Assembly (NCBI RefSeq): GCF_008245225.1
Contig: NZ_VTAW01000017.1
Span: 1 to 64,000 of the forward strand
Source: Natrialba swarupiae
GTDB taxonomy: Archaea > Halobacteriota > Halobacteria > Halobacteriales > Natrialbaceae
Reading direction: 5' to 3'
DNA length: 64,000 nt
Both the position numbers and the translations under genes were made by a program. The notes beneath the pieces were generated by a model. The model did no database searches. It was given only the letters and a program-made list of their open reading frames with translations, and was not told where the DNA came from. Shown in pieces: positions 3,620-60,675 of the stretch. Within the stretch, counting starts at the first letter, position 1; each line of letters opens with the position of its first letter.

Positions 3620-4147
3620 ATGAGCGTCGATACAGGGTCTACCACCCAGCGGTTCGAAGCCGCTCTCGCGGACCTCGAGGTCCCGGTCACGTCTACCGAC
3701 CCGTCGAAGTTCGAACGCACAGTAGAACGTATCGCGGGCGAACCCGCGATCGGCACGTCCCTCCCGTTCCCGTCGGTTTCACTTCCCGACTGGGTCGACG
3801 ACGAGCCGTCACCCCGGGACCTGGAGTCAGCGACCACCGGGATTACGGCCGCCTCGATCGGCATCGCCGACTACGGGAGCGTCGTCCTCCCAGCGACGCC
3901 CTCGGGAGCCGAACAGGTGAGTCTCTTTCCGGATCTGCACGTTCCGGTTCTCCGCGAGTCGGACCTCGTTGCGGACATGCCGACCGCGATCGAGCGACTC
4001 GGCCCCCAACTGCGCGAAGGCCACAGCGCGATCGTCGCCACCGGACCGAGCGCGACGGCGGACATGGGATCTCTCGTAAAGGGCGCACACGGGCCAAAGG
4101 ATGTCCACGTCCTCTTGCTCGAGGAAGCCGGTGAGGACGATGAGTAG
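3620..4147 (+). CDS. lutC: LUD-domain lactate utilization protein LutC
   Basis: A 175-residue LUD-domain (DUF162) protein of the LutC/LldG type, a subunit of the iron-sulfur L-lactate oxidation complex. Visible family features are the ADYGSVVLPATPSGAEQVSLFP stretch (shown here in part of residues 86-110), a predicted beta strand HSAIVATGPSATADMG near residues 137-152, and a closing GPKDVHVLLLE. It is the first gene of an operon: its end overlaps the start of lutBA by eight bases, which indicates translational coupling. The catalytic electron path lies in the partner, since this subunit has no cysteine clusters. Confidence 0.88.
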   Translation: MSVDTGSTTQRFEAALADLEVPVTSTDPSKFERTVERIAGEPAIGTSLPFPSVSLPDWVDDEPSPRDLESATTGITAASIGIADYGSVVLPATPSGAEQVSLFPDLHVPVLRESDLVADMPTAIERLGPQLREGHSAIVATGPSATADMGSLVKGAHGPKDVHVLLLEEAGEDDE

Positions 4148-14730: not shown

Positions 14731-15807
14731 ATGGACGCCGAGGAACTGATCGAAACGCTCGAGGACGCGGGACTGTCGCCGTACCAGGCGGACGCGTTCG
14801 TGACGCTGCTCGAGCTTGGATCGGCGTCCGCGACCGACGTCGCCAGCGCGAGCTCCGTCCCGGATCCACGGATCTACGACGTGTTACGCGGACTCGAGGA
14901 GCAGAGATACGTCGAGACGTACGAACAGGACAGCCTCCACGCGCGGGCCCACGACCCGGCGGAGGTGCTCGCGGATCTGCGCTCGCGGGCCAACCGGTTC
15001 GAGACCGCAGCCGAGGAGATCGAAGACCGGTGGAGTCAGCCGGACATCGAGGAACACAAGGTGAGCATCGTCAAGCGCCTCGATACGGTGCTCGCGCGGG
15101 CCGACGAGCTGATCCGGGCGGCCGAATACCAGGTCCAGATCGGACTGACGCCCGCACAGTTCGACGAGCTTTCCGACGCGCTCGAGACGGCCCGGAAGAA
15201 TGGGGTAGACGTCAGACTCTGTCTGTTTCCGGAGACCGCAGGCGACCTGGCGATTCCACCGATCGAGACGCTGGAACGGGCGTGCTCGGAGGCACGTCGC
15301 CGCGACCTTCCCTCGCCGTTCGTCGCCCTCATCGATCGATCGTGGACGTGCTTTTCGCCGTACGGTGGTTCGACAAACGAGTACGGCGTCATCGTCAACG
15401 ACTGGACTCTCGCGTACGTCTTCAACTGGTATTTCATCACCTGCCTCTGGGAGGTTCTGGAGACGGTGTATACGGACCGACCGGACGAGCCGCCGTTTAC
15501 GTACGCCGACCTTCGGCAGTGTATTCGTGACATCGAGCCGCTGCTCGAGGACGGACTGACCATCGAGGCGACGATCCGTGGCTTCGACACCGAGACCGGC
15601 AGAGAGGTGACCAAACGCGGAACGGTCGTCGACCTCACCTACGCCGGCGTCTCGATGGACGACGACCAGTCCGCGCCACTTTCCCAGCTGGCCGGTGAAA
15701 CGTCGCTTACGCTCGAGACCGATGACGGGACGTACACCGTCGGCGGCTGGGGCGCGTTCATCGAGGACTTCGAGGCGATGCGGGTTACGGTCGAGGCGAT
15801 CGATTGA
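14731..15807 (+). CDS. TrmB-family sugar-responsive transcriptional regulator (1)
   Basis: A 358-residue regulator. Residues 1-80 are the TrmB winged helix (GLSPYQADAFVTLLELGSAS, then DPRIYDVLRGLEEQRYVE). A short coiled segment near 90-110 (FETAAEEIEDRW) leads to a sugar-sensing TrmB C-terminal domain. TrmB proteins switch sugar transport and glycolytic genes in response to a bound sugar. It sits directly ahead of a sugar ABC transporter and is the likely local regulator. Its closest relative in the window is the protein at 55059-56138, similar along its whole length. The stop codon coincides with the left end of a palindromic element. Confidence 0.88.
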   Translation: MDAEELIETLEDAGLSPYQADAFVTLLELGSASATDVASASSVPDPRIYDVLRGLEEQRYVETYEQDSLHARAHDPAEVLADLRSRANRFETAAEEIEDRWSQPDIEEHKVSIVKRLDTVLARADELIRAAEYQVQIGLTPAQFDELSDALETARKNGVDVRLCLFPETAGDLAIPPIETLERACSEARRRDLPSPFVALIDRSWTCFSPYGGSTNEYGVIVNDWTLAYVFNWYFITCLWEVLETVYTDRPDEPPFTYADLRQCIRDIEPLLEDGLTIEATIRGFDTETGREVTKRGTVVDLTYAGVSMDDDQSAPLSQLAGETSLTLETDDGTYTVGGWGAFIEDFEAMRVTVEAID

Positions 15808-21240: not shown

Positions 21241-21364
21241 ATCGACGAACGGCGACCGCCCCATCGGTCGTGTCGGAAGCAGGTCTCCGTCCGGACCGGA
21301 GAACGGACTCGAGTCCATGACGGAGAGCGAGACCGCCCCCGTCTCGACGGAGGGATCCCGATGA
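21206..21364 (+). CDS. Candidate 52-residue hydrophilic protein
   Basis: A short open frame from ATG 21206 to TGA 21362-21364. It overlaps the end of the small membrane-protein gene in another frame, and its stop overlaps the next ATG (ATGA at 21361). About three quarters of third codon positions are G or C, as in real genes here. The peptide (MNDRNEKSSCTESTNGDRPI and on) is hydrophilic and of low complexity, with no motif. It may be a genuine coupled small protein or simply a translated leader that keeps ribosomes moving to the oxidoreductase gene. Confidence 0.33.
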   Translation: MNDRNEKSSCTESTNGDRPIGRVGSRSPSGPENGLESMTESETAPVSTEGSR

Positions 21365-22536
21365 GTGCGGGCCAGGAACCCGTCCGAGTCGGACTCGTCG
21401 GACTCGGGAACATCGGCCACCACCACGCCGACCGGCTTCTCGAACAGGAACTCGAGGTCGAACTCGTGGGAGGGATGGACGTCGCATCGGAGGCCCGTGA
21501 GCGCTTCGCGGACCGGTACGGCGTCGAGGTCTACGACGACCACCACGACCTCTACGACGCGGCCGACGCCGTGATCGTCACGACGCCCAACCGCTTTCAC
21601 GAGGAGTACGCCGTCGCCGCCCTCGAGCGCGACCTTAACATCCTCCTCGAGAAGCCCCTCGGACACACCCTCGAGAGCGCCCGCCGGATCGCGGCCGCGG
21701 CGGCCGACTCGACCGGCCTCACGATGGTCGGGTTCAACAACCGGTTTCTGAACGCCGTGGCGGTGCTTCGCGATCGGATCGGTCGCGGCGAGTTCGGCGA
21801 GGTCACTCACGTCGAGGCCAACTACGTGCGCCGGCGGGGGATCCCCGGTCGTGGCTCCTGGTTCACCCGAAAGGAGGTCTCGGGCGGCGGCGCACTGATC
21901 GACCTCGGCGTCCACGCGATCGACCTCGGGATGTACCTGCTCGACTATCCCGACCCCGTCGAGGTCTCCGGAGTCACCCGATCGCAGTTCGGTCACCGCG
22001 AGGACTACGCCTATCTCGAGATGTGGGGTGACGACGCAGGCCCGGACGCGTTCGACGTCGACGACTCCGCGAGTGCGTTCGTCCGCTGTGACGACGACCG
22101 GACGATCAGCCTCGAGGTCGCCTGGGCGACGAACCGGCCACCGACCCACGAGTTCGTCGTCCGCGGCACCGAGGCGGCGGCCCGGTTCGACCTGCTCACC
22201 GACGAACTCACGATCTACTCGGCGAGCAAGAGCGGCGGTGATCATACGATCGACGAGACGATCGAGACCCGGGAGAACGACAGCCACGCCGACGAGCAGG
22301 CGGCGTTTCTCGAAGCGATCCTCGCGAACCGCTCGGGAACGCGACGCGACGCCGAAGGCCGAACGCGGGCCGGAACCGTCGAAAACGGCCTGACCGTCCA
22401 GCGGGTCGTCGACGGCATCTACCGCTCGAGCGACCGTGGAGGGACGATCTCCCTCGAGGCAAGCGGCGAATCCGTCCCGCTGAAAGGAGTCGAGGACGAA
22501 TCCGTCCCGCTCGAGGAAAGCTATAGTAACAACTGA
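21361..22536 (+). CDS. Gfo/Idh/MocA-family oxidoreductase (1)
   Basis: A 391-residue NAD(P)-dependent sugar oxidoreductase. The Rossmann motif GLVGLGNIGHHHAD starts at about residue 11. The family EKP motif (ILLEKPLGHT) is near residue 97. The C-terminal region includes GGGALIDLGVHAIDLGMYLL, carrying the conserved Asp and His that position the sugar hydroxyl. Members oxidise or reduce a ring hydroxyl of sugars, inositols or glycosides. It belongs to the transporter operon. The last residues (ESYSNN) and the stop codon are encoded inside a palindromic element, so the C-terminus may have been altered by insertion. Confidence 0.88.
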   Translation: MSAGQEPVRVGLVGLGNIGHHHADRLLEQELEVELVGGMDVASEARERFADRYGVEVYDDHHDLYDAADAVIVTTPNRFHEEYAVAALERDLNILLEKPLGHTLESARRIAAAAADSTGLTMVGFNNRFLNAVAVLRDRIGRGEFGEVTHVEANYVRRRGIPGRGSWFTRKEVSGGGALIDLGVHAIDLGMYLLDYPDPVEVSGVTRSQFGHREDYAYLEMWGDDAGPDAFDVDDSASAFVRCDDDRTISLEVAWATNRPPTHEFVVRGTEAAARFDLLTDELTIYSASKSGGDHTIDETIETRENDSHADEQAAFLEAILANRSGTRRDAEGRTRAGTVENGLTVQRVVDGIYRSSDRGGTISLEASGESVPLKGVEDESVPLEESYSNN

Positions 22537-55058: not shown

Positions 55059-56138
55059 ATGGATCGAAGCAGGCTTCGCACGGCGCTCGAGGAAGGGGGG
55101 TTGACCTCCTATCAGACCGACGCCTATCTGACCCTGTTGGATCGTGGTATGGCCTCCGTGACGGAAGTCGCGAACAACTCCTCGATCCCGTCCTCACAGA
55201 TCTACGACGTGCTTCGTGCCCTCGAGGACAAGGGGTACATCGAGACGCTCGAGCAGGATACGCTCCACGCACGCCCGGTCGATCCCGAACACGTCCTGGA
55301 GGATCTGCGCGAGCGCGGATCGCTGCTGGTCGAGGCGGCCGACGAGATCGAAGAGCGCTGGCAACGGCCGGAGATGAGCGACCACTACATGACCGTGTTC
55401 AAAAGCGAGGATACGGTCGTGAGACGTGCCAAAGAACAGATCGACGAGGCCGAGATCGGCATCGAAGTCGCGTGCCAGATCGAACAGTTCGAGCGGTTGA
55501 AACCCAACCTGAAGGCGGCTAAAGAACGGGGAGTTGTTATCAAGATCGTCGTCTACTGCCCGAACGATCCCAGCGAGCTGCTCGAAGAGAATCTGGAGCC
55601 GTACGCCTCGGAGGTGCGGGCGTGTTACATCCCCGGGCCGTTCGTCGCCGTTATCGATCACACGAAGACGTGTTATACGCCAAATATGCGGCCCAGCGAA
55701 CCGTTCGGGCTCGTCTTCGACGATCCGCTCCTCTCGTTTATCTTTCACTGGTTCTTCCAGATCTGCCAGTGGGCGATCTGGGAGCCGATCCTCCCGCGTC
55801 ACGATCCACCGACGTCGTACGTGAGCATTCAGGGGTTCATCCGCGACATCGGACCGCTCTTTCTGGAGGGAGCGAGCCTCGAGATCAGCGTCGAGGGAAT
55901 CGTCCCCGAGACGGGCGAGGACCGAACGATTTCCGGGACGATCACCGAGGTCGTCTATCCGGGCCGGTACCGCAACGAGTTGCCGACGTACGAACGCCTC
56001 GGCGGCAAGGCAGCCATGGCCATCACGACTACGGACGGGACGTACACCATTGGCGGGTGGGGTGCGGTGTTCGAGGACCTCGCTGCAAAGGTGATCACCC
56101 TCGAGAACATCACCCTCCCCCATCGCTTGACTGAATAA
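55059..56138 (+). CDS. TrmB-family sugar-responsive transcriptional regulator (2)
   Basis: A 359-residue TrmB protein aligned end-to-end with the one at 14731: LTSYQTDAYLTLLDRGMASV opens the winged helix, SSQIYDVLRALEDKGYIETL follows, then VEAADEIEERWQRPEMSDH and a sugar-sensing domain ending GTYTIGGWGAVFEDL. The two differ enough to sense different sugars. It lies downstream of the GH3 gene and probably controls the second transporter and GH3. A possible TATA box occurs in the duplicated segment before it. Confidence 0.88.
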   Translation: MDRSRLRTALEEGGLTSYQTDAYLTLLDRGMASVTEVANNSSIPSSQIYDVLRALEDKGYIETLEQDTLHARPVDPEHVLEDLRERGSLLVEAADEIEERWQRPEMSDHYMTVFKSEDTVVRRAKEQIDEAEIGIEVACQIEQFERLKPNLKAAKERGVVIKIVVYCPNDPSELLEENLEPYASEVRACYIPGPFVAVIDHTKTCYTPNMRPSEPFGLVFDDPLLSFIFHWFFQICQWAIWEPILPRHDPPTSYVSIQGFIRDIGPLFLEGASLEISVEGIVPETGEDRTISGTITEVVYPGRYRNELPTYERLGGKAAMAITTTDGTYTIGGWGAVFEDLAAKVITLENITLPHRLTE

Positions 56139-56749
56139 CCCGATCTCGTTCGATCGATTTCGTTCTGCGGGCCGCGGTCAACCCGTTGCCAGGATTTCGT
56201 GTTCGGTGTAGCCGTCCGTCTTGACCACGCCGAAGGGAGAGATCGGCTCGTCAATCCCGGTATTCGACGGAACCCGGATGAATGGATATTATATAGTGAA
56301 GCTGATAGGAGATAATATACGGACGAAATATGTGAAAAAACCCGACTCGAGGCACCCATAAATATTGTCTATCCATCATGTAGTCCCCAAAATAACCTAA
56401 AAAAGATATGTTTGTACCAGTACCATAAAAGGGTAGTATTGATACAAAGTGCAGATACGAGACGTCATAAGCCAGTATAACCACGACAAGCGACACCAGC
56501 AATCATACTTCTAAAATACTATTTTCTATTGATCAAATCAACCATCGAATGTTTCCTCGAGCACAAATTTACAAAAGTATGTCCGTAATCTACCGGTCGA
56601 CATCTCATCCACCCAGGACGTTTGACGAGACTCGCGTGATTTAAATCTGTACTGTTGTAAATCAACCGGTGTATCGTCGACCACAGCCAATCCTCCCGCT
56701 CAGGGCGGTCGGGGGTGGGTGTTTATTCCGTTGTGCAAACATAAGTAGT
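56139..56749. other. AT-rich spacer before the broken Gfo/Idh locus
   Basis: No gene is supported. From about 56270 to 56640 the DNA is far AT-richer than its surroundings. A minus-strand frame at 56251-56502 encodes a very hydrophobic peptide with many aromatic residues, most easily explained by AT bias. The abrupt composition change and the adjacent pseudogene make this a likely scar of past rearrangement or insertion. TTTAAATC near 56640 could be a promoter. Confidence 0.45.
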
Positions 56750-56953
56750 ATGAATGCAAATCGTCATCAGCTGACGATCGGGATCGTCGGGTTAGGGACC
56801 CACGGGACGAATCACACGCAGGCGCTCAGGCAACTGGGACACGACCTGGTCGGTACCGACGCGGACCCAACTATCCGCACAGAGTTCGAAGCTCAGTTCG
56901 GCGCGGAAACCGTCGAACACCCATCGACTCTCTTCGAAGAAGCGATCGACGCC
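56750..56953 (+). pseudogene. Gfo/Idh oxidoreductase, N-terminal fragment
   Basis: The first 68 codons of a Gfo/Idh gene: TIGIVGLGTHGTNHTQALRQ gives the nucleotide-binding loop and the helix after it, then LVGTDADPTIRTEFEAQFGA continues normally. After residue 68 (LFEEAIDA) the sequence stops resembling the family, where a strand leading to ITTPN should follow, and continues as the tail of a glycosidase. All remaining catalytic parts are missing, so this copy cannot work. Confidence 0.78.
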
Positions 56954-57392
56954 TACACGTTCGATGGTGAACGGGTGTTCTCCCGCAAAGAATTAATCTC
57001 GATCGATACCCAGGCGAGTCGCCGCCGTGACGGCGGTTCCGGACGACGCGTTCGGCGACGTCCCCCCCGAGTGGGTGTTCGTCAGAACCGAGTTCCACCC
57101 GGTCGACGACGCCGAGAGCTACCCCGACTTCGCCTTCGTCGAGTCGTTCAAACACCTCGAACTGCCAGAACCCGATATCACCGTCGACGTCGAGGGTACC
57201 GACGTCGTCCTCGAGACCACCGACGCGGCGCTGTTCGTCGCCGTCGACGCCTCGCCGCTCTCGGGGCACTTCTCTGATAACTACGTCCACCTCACCCCCG
57301 GAGAGCCCGTTCGACTCTCCTCCCAGGGAGCGGCCAGCGAGAGCGAACTCGAGGAGGCGGTGTCGGTTCGAAGCCTCGAATCGACGTACTGA
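56954..57392 (+). pseudogene. GH2 beta-mannosidase-like C-terminal fragment with frameshift
   Basis: From about 56954 the protein reads YTFDGERVFSRKELISIDTQ, then a one-base shift near 57020-57026 moves the frame: VTAVPDDAFGDVPPEWVFVR continues in the frame that runs to 57392. The end has PEPDITVDVEGTDVVLETTD and GHFSDNYVHLTPGEPVRL, typical of the immunoglobulin-like C-terminal domain of GH2 beta-mannosidases. No catalytic part exists. Both the missing 5' part and the frameshift mark this as a pseudogene, joined to the Gfo/Idh fragment by a deletion. Confidence 0.72.
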
Positions 57393-57895
57393 GCGCGAGC
57401 ACGGATCGCGTGGGTTATCTCCACGCCGTGTCCGACCGTTTCCTGTAACTATCGACGACGCCTCCCACGGAGAAACGGCGATTCCGTTCGGACGTGGGCA
57501 ACGACGGATTACGGAACGCACCGACCTCGACCTGAGTACGATTGAACCGAACGGTGGCGACGAGGCCACCGATCTGGGGTAACGAGAAACTCGGACGACA
57601 TCCTCGAGAGGCTATCGCGGTCGCTGCCGAAACGAGTGACATGACTGATCGGTCGAGAAGCGTGCGACGGTGGATCGAAATACCTACGTAAAGTGTCTTT
57701 TGTACTGGTACATAATAGCGATTCTACATTTTTGTGGGACCTCTGTCCGGCCTTTCACACCACTCAGTCAGATATCAACCAATGGCAGAACAGTTATATG
57801 AGCTGCTAAATTTATAGATCGATCGGGCAAAACGAGGTGGTCGCTGGCTCGGATCCACTGTGGAGAACGTTTCTGTTGGCGGTCCCGGCCGGTCG
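57393..57895. other. Spacer between pseudogene and mannonate dehydratase gene
   Basis: No confident gene. One plus frame in the left half (about 57440-57583) reads IDDASHGETAIPFGRGQRRI and ends at a stop without any start, so it may be more debris. From 57660 the composition becomes AT-rich. An 11-codon frame MAEQLYELLNL lies at 57782-57817. It is the downstream flank of the uxuA gene on the other strand, so a terminator may also lie here. Confidence 0.45.
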
Positions 57896-58843
57896 TTACT
57901 CGAGCAGGCCCTTCATGTATCCGACGACGAAGATCTTGCCGGTGATGTGGTAGCCGGGGATCGAGTTATCCTCGCCTTCCATCGTGGGGACGTGGTCGGG
58001 TCGGATGGGGCCGTCGAAGCCGATCTCGCGGTAGGCGTCGATGGCGGCCTGCATGTCGGTCGGCCCCTCGTCGTGCCACGTCTCGACGAAGGCGTCGCCG
58101 TCGCCGTCGACGTCGCGGAAGTGAACGAAGGTGATCCGATCGCCGAAGTGACGGATCGTCTCCGGCACGTCGACGCCCATCGCCGCGAAGTTCCCCTGAC
58201 AGAACGTCAGGCCGTTGTACGGCGAGTCGACGATGTCGAGCACACGGTCGTACGCCTCCACGCTGTTGATGATCCTGGGCATGCCTCGAACCTCCTCGCG
58301 CGGCGGGTCGTCCGGGTGGAGACCGAGTTTGACGCCCGCCTCCTCGGCGACGGGAACGACGCGTTCGAGGAAGTACTCGAGGTTCTCCCAGAGATCCTCG
58401 GCGGTCGTCGTCTCGGCCGCAGCCGGCGTCGGACCCCGCCGCATCAGATCGTCGTCGTAGGACGTCGTCAGTGAGCCGCCGCGGGCGGGCGTCGTCGTCG
58501 ACGTCCGGGCCCACCGGAGTCCGGCCATCCAGTCGTAACAGACGACCTCGACGCCGAGTTCGCCGAGATTTCGAAGCAAGGTACAGAACTCCTCGATCTC
58601 CTCGTCTCGGCCCTCGAGTGCGAGTCGCGTCTTGTCCGTCACCGGGACGCTCCCTTCGAACGCGGCGGGTTCGATCCCGTGGTCGCGATACCGGGAAATC
58701 AACGGCATGAGTTCGTCGTAACTCGAGGGACGGCTTCCGTCACCGATCTCGAGGGAGTGAAAGACGGCGTGGTCGACGCCGGCCTGTTTCGCGAGTTTCC
58801 ACCGTTCGTCGGGTTCGGGGGGGAGTACGAGTGCGATGTCCAT
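57896..58843 (-). CDS. uxuA: Mannonate dehydratase
   Basis: A 315-residue UxuA-family enzyme converting D-mannonate to 2-keto-3-deoxygluconate. KLGLHPDDPPREEVRGMPRI near residue 175-195, LTFCQGNFAAMGVDVPETIR near 225-245 and FVHFRDVDGDGDAFVETWHD near 250-270 contain the metal-binding His, Cys, His and Asp positions of the family. It is shorter than E. coli UxuA (394 residues), as expected for the compact form. It begins 117 bases from the divergent epimerase gene, sharing a promoter region. The product could be phosphorylated by the PfkB kinase at 12844. Confidence 0.88.
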   Translation of the reverse strand: MDIALVLPPEPDERWKLAKQAGVDHAVFHSLEIGDGSRPSSYDELMPLISRYRDHGIEPAAFEGSVPVTDKTRLALEGRDEEIEEFCTLLRNLGELGVEVVCYDWMAGLRWARTSTTTPARGGSLTTSYDDDLMRRGPTPAAAETTTAEDLWENLEYFLERVVPVAEEAGVKLGLHPDDPPREEVRGMPRIINSVEAYDRVLDIVDSPYNGLTFCQGNFAAMGVDVPETIRHFGDRITFVHFRDVDGDGDAFVETWHDEGPTDMQAAIDAYREIGFDGPIRPDHVPTMEGEDNSIPGYHITGKIFVVGYMKGLLE

Positions 58844-58960
58844 CGTTGTGACTCGAGAATCACCCCGTCGTCTCTTATGCTTTTCTTCGTTGCGTCGCGA
58901 AGCTGAACACACGTCTGCAGGATCGATAGCTATTCCTTTCGAACGGCCGAACCTCGAGCC

Positions 58961-59842
58961 ATGCCACTCGAACGCATCGCGGTCACCGGCGGAAACGGGA
59001 AGATCGGCGAAGCGATCCTCGCGGAGTTCGCCGAGCACGGGTACGAGACGGTAAACATCGCACGAGGGAAACGCCGGGAGGAGGTCTCCGACGAGTTCCG
59101 CTCGACGGACCTGCTCGATGCGGGCGAGACGTACGGTTCGATCGCCCGCAGCGATGCCGACGCAGTCGTTCACATGGGAACGATTCCGGGACCGACGAAC
59201 CACCCCGGATTCCGAACGTACGAGAGCAACGTGATGTCGGCCTACCACGTCCTCGAGGCTGGCCACGAACTCGGTCTCGAGTCGGTCGTTCTCCCCTCGA
59301 GTATCAACGCGATGGGCGCAGCCTACCAGAGGGCTCCGACCGACGTCCGGTATCTCCCCGTCGACGAGGATCACCCGCTGACCCCGCGAGATCCCTACGC
59401 GACGAGCAAGCACACGATGGAGGTCACCGCCGACGGCTTCGGCCGCCTTCCCGACGCCCCGACCATCTCGTCGCTTCGGTATCCGTGGGTCGCCACCGAC
59501 GACGAACTCCGCGAGGAGTTCGCCGAAGCGGACCGCTCGCTCGCGGGACTCGAGGACGCCTGGCACCACACGACCCGCGACGTCGTCTTCTCGTATCTCC
59601 ACATCGACGACGCGGCGTCGATCGCTCGACTCGCCGCCGAGGCCGAGTTCGACGGTCACGAGACCTTCTGGGCGGTCGCCACAGACACCTCGGCCGACGT
59701 TTCCTCCGAGCGACTGGCCGAGGAGTACTTCCCCGACGCGTCGATCGAATCACCCCTCGAGGGCCACGAAACCCTCATCAGCGTCGACAAAGCCGAGGAA
59801 CGACTGGGCTGGACGCCCGAGCGAAGTTGGCGGGAGCTGTAA
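58961..59842 (+). CDS. NAD-dependent epimerase/dehydratase, uronate dehydrogenase-like
   Basis: A 293-residue extended SDR. GGNGKIGEAILAEF near residue 10 is the cofactor loop. LPSSINAMG contains the catalytic Ser, and DPYATSKHTMEVTADGF the Tyr and Lys pair. This overall shape, about 290 residues with a short C-terminal domain, matches bacterial uronate dehydrogenases (hexuronate to aldarolactone), and the divergent neighbour uxuA supports a role in uronate or hexonate catabolism. A sugar epimerase cannot be excluded. It heads a plus-strand pair with the TIM-barrel gene downstream. Confidence 0.83.
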   Translation: MPLERIAVTGGNGKIGEAILAEFAEHGYETVNIARGKRREEVSDEFRSTDLLDAGETYGSIARSDADAVVHMGTIPGPTNHPGFRTYESNVMSAYHVLEAGHELGLESVVLPSSINAMGAAYQRAPTDVRYLPVDEDHPLTPRDPYATSKHTMEVTADGFGRLPDAPTISSLRYPWVATDDELREEFAEADRSLAGLEDAWHHTTRDVVFSYLHIDDAASIARLAAEAEFDGHETFWAVATDTSADVSSERLAEEYFPDASIESPLEGHETLISVDKAEERLGWTPERSWREL

Positions 59843-59934
59843 CGAGACGGAGAGTCGACGGCGTCCTCCGGGTGTTTGCCGAGCGGCCGACGACACTCAC
59901 CAGGTTTATCACCACCGGTACCCGTTTTCGAGGT

Positions 59935-60675
59935 ATGGTTCAGACCGCGATTCAGTTGTACTCGCTTCGTGACATCGACGCCTCGCTCCCCGAGGTTCTC
60001 GACCTCGTCGGTGACACCAGCTTCGACGGTGTGGAGTTCGCCCACCGCGTCGGATCCGACGACGTCGACGTCGATGCCGTCCTCGAGGCGCTCGAGCGCA
60101 ACGGGCTCGAGTCGGCGGCGGCCCACGTCGGACTCGAGGCCCTAGAGGAGGAGTACGAGGCGATGACGGAACTGTACGAGACGCTGGGCTGTGAGACGCT
60201 CGTCGTGCCGTGGCTCGATCCCAAACAGTTCGCCTCCGAAGATGCGGTCGCGGACACGGCCGATCGTCTCGAGCGGGTCGCCACCGATCTCGCCGAGGAC
60301 GGGTTCGACCTCCACTATCACAACCACGACCAGGAGTTCGTCAGCCTCGGCGAGGGAACTGCGATGGACGAACTACTCGCGCGAGCGCCGACTGTCGGCT
60401 TCGAAATCGACCTCGGCTGGGCGCGTGCGGCCGGGGCCGACCCCGTCGAGGTCGTCGACGAACACGCCGATCGGATCTCCTACGCTCACTTCGCTGACGC
60501 CGACGCCGAGACGATGGCCTGTGTCGAACTCGGAGACGGCGACCTCGACGTCGAGGCCGCACTCGAGGCGGTCCGCCGTGCCGACGTCGAGTGGTACGTC
60601 TACGAGCACGACGAGCCCGACACACCCCGGGAGTCACTCGCCCACGGCGCCGAGACGCTCGACTCTTTCAGGTGA
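59935..60675 (+). CDS. Sugar phosphate isomerase/epimerase-like TIM-barrel protein (2)
   Basis: A 246-residue xylose isomerase-like barrel. MVQTAIQLYSLRDIDASLPE with DTSFDGVEFAH is a typical opening. Candidate metal ligands are Glu in VEFAH, His in HYHNHDQEF, Glu/Asp in GFEIDLGW, and Glu in YVYEHDEPDTP. The family includes hydroxypyruvate isomerases, inosose enzymes and 3-keto-glycoside-processing proteins. It is much shorter than the TIM-barrel protein at 22847 and only distantly related. It precedes a convergent Gfo/Idh gene, separated by a palindromic element. Confidence 0.84.
   Translation: MVQTAIQLYSLRDIDASLPEVLDLVGDTSFDGVEFAHRVGSDDVDVDAVLEALERNGLESAAAHVGLEALEEEYEAMTELYETLGCETLVVPWLDPKQFASEDAVADTADRLERVATDLAEDGFDLHYHNHDQEFVSLGEGTAMDELLARAPTVGFEIDLGWARAAGADPVEVVDEHADRISYAHFADADAETMACVELGDGDLDVEAALEAVRRADVEWYVYEHDEPDTPRESLAHGAETLDSFR

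Follow-up and report, generated by a model that had tools for sequence, protein, structure and literature searches.

In the window (the whole 64,000-nucleotide stretch of DNA that was analyzed), the interval 56750-57392 carries the start of a Gfo/Idh/MocA oxidoreductase gene joined to the end of a GH2 beta-mannosidase gene, and intact genes follow downstream (Table 1). An earlier note on this DNA had described the interval as a chimeric pseudogene with a Gfo/Idh head and a beta-mannosidase tail, and both homologies were found in place.

Table 1. Features of the scar and of the genes behind it (window coordinates).
Feature	Position	Strand	Evidence or remark
TTTATT box, TATA-like	56722..56727	+	28 nt upstream of the Gfo/Idh ATG
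Gfo/Idh/MocA (GH109-like) oxidoreductase head, codons 1-68	56750..56953	+	59-68% identity to intact genes of the nearest relatives
Junction ATCGACGCC (Ile-Asp-Ala)	56945..56953	+	matches both parent genes (base-by-base comparison, four relatives)
GH2 beta-mannosidase tail, first part, in the frame of the head	56954..57019	+	residues 66-90 correspond to L049 712-736
Frame change within the tail	57010..57030	+	homology leaves frame 1 and continues in the next one
GH2 beta-mannosidase tail, second part (C-terminal Ig-fold domain)	57027..57392	+	Pfam PF17753
Mannonate dehydratase (UxuA), intact	57896..58900	-	Pfam PF03786, 261.3 bits; convergent with the scar
NAD-dependent epimerase, intact	58961..59842	+	Pfam PF01370; 78% identity in L091, 81% in L049
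Xylose-isomerase-like TIM-barrel protein, intact	59932..60675	+	Pfam PF01261; 72-73% identity in L049 and L050

The Gfo/Idh homology of frame 1, which opens with the ATG at 56750, ends at residue 68, where the head had been said to stop. Over residues 1-68 the identity was 67.7% to L049, 66.2% to L050, 64.7% to both L052 and L053, and 58.8% to L054. The intact gene of the relatives encodes ∼360 aa, and ∼81% of it is absent from the scar, including the C-terminal alpha/beta domain (PF02894 and PF22725 in one intact relative). The model of the N-terminal NAD-binding Rossmann fold (PF01408, GFO_IDH_MocA) gave 16.7 bits on the first 90 residues, below its cut-off of 24, because the head is short and runs into mannosidase sequence.

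The mannosidase part is entered in the frame of the head, from about residue 685 of 842. Frame-1 residues 66-90 matched residues 712-736 of the L049 beta-mannosidase at 60% identity (E 3e-7), and 56942-57007 aligned with residues 682-703 of the L052 enzyme. The homology then changes frame near 57020-57026 in the single assembly examined, which bears out the one-base shift described earlier. Behind it, 57027-57389 matched the L049 mannosidase from residue 739 to its end (53%, E 5e-34) and residues 726-842 of L052 (61%), and the tail ends at the native mannosidase stop (57390-57392). The earlier note had placed the tail in the Ig-like region of the mannosidase, and the Ig_mannosidase model PF17753 scored 57.2 bits on it vs. 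a cut-off of 22.6. Frame 1 itself continues past the frame change as out-of-frame sequence as far as 57277. With the full-length L052 mannosidase as query, the match in the window started only at residue 682; the catalytic TIM barrel and the N-terminal domains of the GH2 enzyme are absent from the window. Compared with intact orthologs, the locus is truncated and its frame is disrupted, as in a pseudogene. A perfect GC-rich palindrome (CCGCCGT-G-ACGGCGG, 57020-57036) lies at the frame change and is a plausible site for an indel or a sequencing error.

We searched 125 genomes of the family Natrialbaceae, the organism's own included. Tail matches occurred in 13 of them, and head matches, counted regardless of strength, in 119. 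Close head matches (E up to about 1e-12, a cut set in this analysis) were present in 14 other genomes: 12 that also have the tail, plus genomes G022 and G120. In 11 of the 12 other tail-bearing genomes the head and tail matches share a contig and a strand, with 4.5-5.2 kb between their starts. All 11 stretches have the order Gfo/Idh, IclR, beta-mannosidase, some with a universal stress protein gene before the mannosidase. Comparison with strains carrying the two genes as intact neighbors, as proposed earlier, was possible in 11 relatives, except that an IclR regulator gene stands between them. IclR was assigned by tblastn or annotation in L049-L053, L055, L088, and L096, and from the likeness of the ORF start alone in L056, L058, and L059. 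In L088, L052, L051, and L055 a convergent mannonate dehydratase gene directly follows the mannosidase, just as one follows the scar. Identity to the two pieces in the window is only 48-66% even in the nearest intact relatives. No mannosidase match was found in three other genomes of the genus; the Gfo/Idh gene of G120 shares only 38% identity with the operon gene, and the 18-kb stretch read there contains neither an IclR nor a mannosidase match.

The same order of Gfo/Idh/MocA, IclR, GH2, and convergent mannonate dehydratase genes occurs in Haloterrigena turkmenica pHTUR02 (NC_013745.1, HTUR_RS22665-RS22685), which is 46% identical to the window in the head and 44% in the tail. There the genes are annotated as full length, with a universal stress protein between IclR and GH2, whereas the window lacks the middle. 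The published mannan-utilization cluster of Natronoglomus mannanivorans comprises a GH2 beta-mannosidase, GH109, mannonate dehydratases, an epimerase, and IclR, the gene set of the ancestral-type operon, together with the endo-mannanases GH26, GH5_7, and GH5_8 (PMC10963439). In contrast, the genome analyzed here gave no match to GH26 or to the PF00150 model of GH5, both of which were positive in control genomes; the GH5 result applies to PF00150, and more divergent GH5 enzymes are outside the reach of that model.

The length of the missing sequence was measured in nine of ten relatives (L051 was left out, the mannosidase site pattern not being found there) and came to 4167, 4181, 4508, and 4298 bp in the four nearest, followed by 4866, 4271, 4791, 4751, and 4736 bp. 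The deletion is accordingly estimated at ∼4.2-4.5 kb by the four nearest relatives and at 4.2-4.9 kb by all nine, and it contains the whole IclR gene. The earlier proposal of a single deletion in a larger glycan-use cluster is supported, but the 2-3 kb suggested for its size falls short of the measured 4167-4866 bp.

The switch from Gfo/Idh-like to mannosidase-like sequence was sharp and fell on ATCGACGCC. This sequence agreed with the Gfo/Idh site at 9 of 9 bases in L049, L052, and L053 and at 7 of 9 in L050; with the mannosidase site it agreed at 8 of 9 bases in L052, 7 in L049, and 6 in L050 and L053. Within one relative the two sites shared 7/9 (L049), 5/9 (L050), 8/9 (L052), and 6/9 (L053) bases, and the chance of such identity among random frame-aligned pairs was 0.004, 0.08, 0.001, and 0.05, respectively. 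This likeness fits a deletion between short repeats without proving it, with the relatives' ends standing in for the strain's own. In deletion pseudogenes formed between short direct repeats, two truncated genes meet in a short sequence common to both, and nothing unusual was seen in the scar relative to this class. A repeat search over 55900-58100 gave only short chance-like pairs, with no mobile element or repeat at the junction, and Rfam found no family over 56100-57900.

The missing parts are absent from the rest of the assembly (4,201,486 bases, 99 contigs, completeness 100). With the full-length mannosidase as query, the tail (residues 726-842) was the sole match in the whole genome. No close IclR copy was present, the best match being 40% identical vs. 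58-93% among operon copies. No further match to the head exceeded 40%, and a separate Gfo/Idh gene at 21325-22437 is 43% identical to the operon gene. A hidden intact copy elsewhere in the genome was not found by the mannosidase, IclR, or head searches. Outside the genome, tail matches occurred in 4 of 72,556 plasmid records at 44-52% identity, none near-identical. Of 67 records with nucleotide matches to window positions 40000-64000, the 20 listed reached a coverage of no more than 11%, and a wider contig search added Halorhabdus salina and an uncultured bacterium, both distantly related.

The TATA-like TTTATT box has counterparts at -30/-31 in the six nearest relatives (L049-L054), so that 7 of 12 loci have it, the window included. 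TTTAT occurs in 11 of the 12, with L055, which was measured from a wrong start, counted as lacking the box. The background frequency of TTTATT was 312 in 107191 positions (0.3%). The putative operon promoter appears to be kept, and therefore the scar may still be transcribed. AT-rich sequence on both sides had also been taken as debris of a recombination scar. We rejected this for the 5' flank: within the 600 bp preceding Gfo/Idh, the lowest GC over 200 bp was 0.345 for the window, compared with 0.29-0.405 across L049-L053, so that 5 of 11 relatives are comparably AT-rich (0.465-0.595 in the six others, the start of L055 being approximate), and TTTATT is kept. On the 3' side, the gap between scar and UxuA (57393-57895) is 503 bp long vs. 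120-134 bp in four relatives, ∼380 bp longer, so more than one change happened nearby. The gap is single copy and partly GC-rich, and no gene was recognized by eye in its ORF list. The motif GTACYRGTAC occurs exactly only at 56414-56423 and 57702-57711 in the window, flanking the scar; as a conserved operon operator it was rejected, being present upstream of Gfo/Idh (with at most one mismatch) in only 2 of 11 relatives.

Where all the other sequences agree, the tail differs at 4 of 29 columns and the head at 1 of 21, compared with 0-4 of 29-33 and 0-2 of 21-23 in the corresponding regions of intact genes. The GC content by codon position in the tail (0.70/0.41/0.85) is like that of neighboring genes, the tail has no stop, and the frame change is its only disruption. 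With neither a stop nor a clear excess of conserved-site changes, the tail would have been intact until recently, and the inactivation looks recent.

Taken together, we regard it as very probable that the chimera is a deletion pseudogene from a mannan operon, made by one deletion that was followed or preceded by a one-base frame change. The ancestor would have carried a manno-oligosaccharide operon of Gfo/Idh (GH109-like), IclR, and GH2 beta-mannosidase genes with a convergent mannonate dehydratase behind. One deletion, whose ends probably lay in two short sequences resembling that at the junction, would have removed Gfo/Idh from codon 69 to its end, all of IclR, and the mannosidase up to about codon 684, and would have joined the remaining parts in frame; the frame change in the remaining tail may have come after or before it. 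A stepwise erosion, in which the mannosidase front was lost or its frame broken and a later second deletion took IclR and the rest of Gfo/Idh, is a less attractive and on balance unlikely account. Partial loss does occur, since G022 keeps Gfo/Idh and IclR beside a decayed mannosidase C-terminus, and the frame change implies at least two mutations in the window. However, the junction in the window is sharp, in frame, and placed in sequence common to both parents, and the tail has neither a stop nor more conserved-site changes (4/29) than the upper end of the range in intact genes.

That two separate pieces were wrongly joined in assembly is very improbable, even though the draft genome comprises 99 contigs: the missing 4 kb do not occur elsewhere in the assembly, whose completeness is 100, the two pieces keep the order and strand of the ancestral operon and are followed by UxuA, and the stretches on both sides of the scar are single copy, so there is no repeat to mislead the assembler. 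Least credible of all is a working fusion protein with the frame change as a sequencing error. The in-frame deletion, the coding-like GC by codon position, and the palindrome beside the frame change would agree with it, but what remains is only about one-fifth of each protein, a Rossmann fold broken off mid-way plus an accessory Ig domain, and both the GH2 catalytic barrel and the oxidoreductase C-terminal domain are gone. The earlier note had named an intact homologous fusion in other species, together with a sequencing error behind the shift, as what would refute its reading; no similar fusion was seen in the 125 family genomes, where all other tail matches fall within open frames of 825-931 aa. 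As a deletion pseudogene, the scar is an ordinary one in a mannan cluster of the published kind (PMC10963439).

Partial losses of the same operon were detected in two other genomes. G022 (locus L054) has intact Gfo/Idh and IclR genes and, between IclR and UxuA, a mannosidase C-terminal remnant in two frames at 3681-3960. Its better piece scored 17.0 bits, which none of 1000 dinucleotide shuffles reached (maximum 6.1); the second piece gave only 3.8 bits. The same mannosidase end is kept in the same place before UxuA as in the window, but the G022 remnant is more decayed than the window tail, and its Gfo/Idh and IclR genes are intact, unlike those of the window. The loss of most of the mannosidase in G022, which belongs to another genus, is an event separate from that in the window. 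The mannosidase and the Gfo/Idh head of G020 (completeness 83%) are on different contigs. The Gfo/Idh gene there (L061, 3492-3722, minus strand) is cut near residue 63 and joined in antisense to the end of an IclR-like gene; the break is within about six codons of that in the window, in a draft genome where an assembly error is possible. Breaks near Gfo/Idh codons 62-68 are thus seen in two lineages (the window and G020) and a mannosidase loss in a third (G022). These observations suggest that the operon core has been lost repeatedly, but the window and two further cases do not suffice to claim a hot spot. Mannonate dehydratase, epimerase, the isomerase-like gene, and a second oxidoreductase are kept in both the window and G022. 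A general pattern in haloarchaea, in which the Gfo/Idh-IclR-GH2 core is repeatedly lost and its neighbors are kept, owing to a fragile site or to a half-cluster used differently, seems to us rather doubtful.

Of the cluster, the dehydratase, an epimerase, and an isomerase-like gene are retained in the window; its glycosidase, oxidoreductase, and regulator are lost. The organism would descend from a carrier of a manno-oligosaccharide operon that kept the mannonate dehydratase and lost the glycosidase and regulator, and mannan use has presumably been lost with them; the locus should not be taken as an indication of mannan use. For annotation, the 121-aa ORF at 57027-57392 is to be read as a mannosidase remnant and not as a small Ig-fold protein. 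Elsewhere in the window we noted two TrmB-type regulator genes (14731-15801 and 55059-56135) that are 41% identical to each other; in three further genomes of the genus, their best-scoring matches reach only 28% identity.
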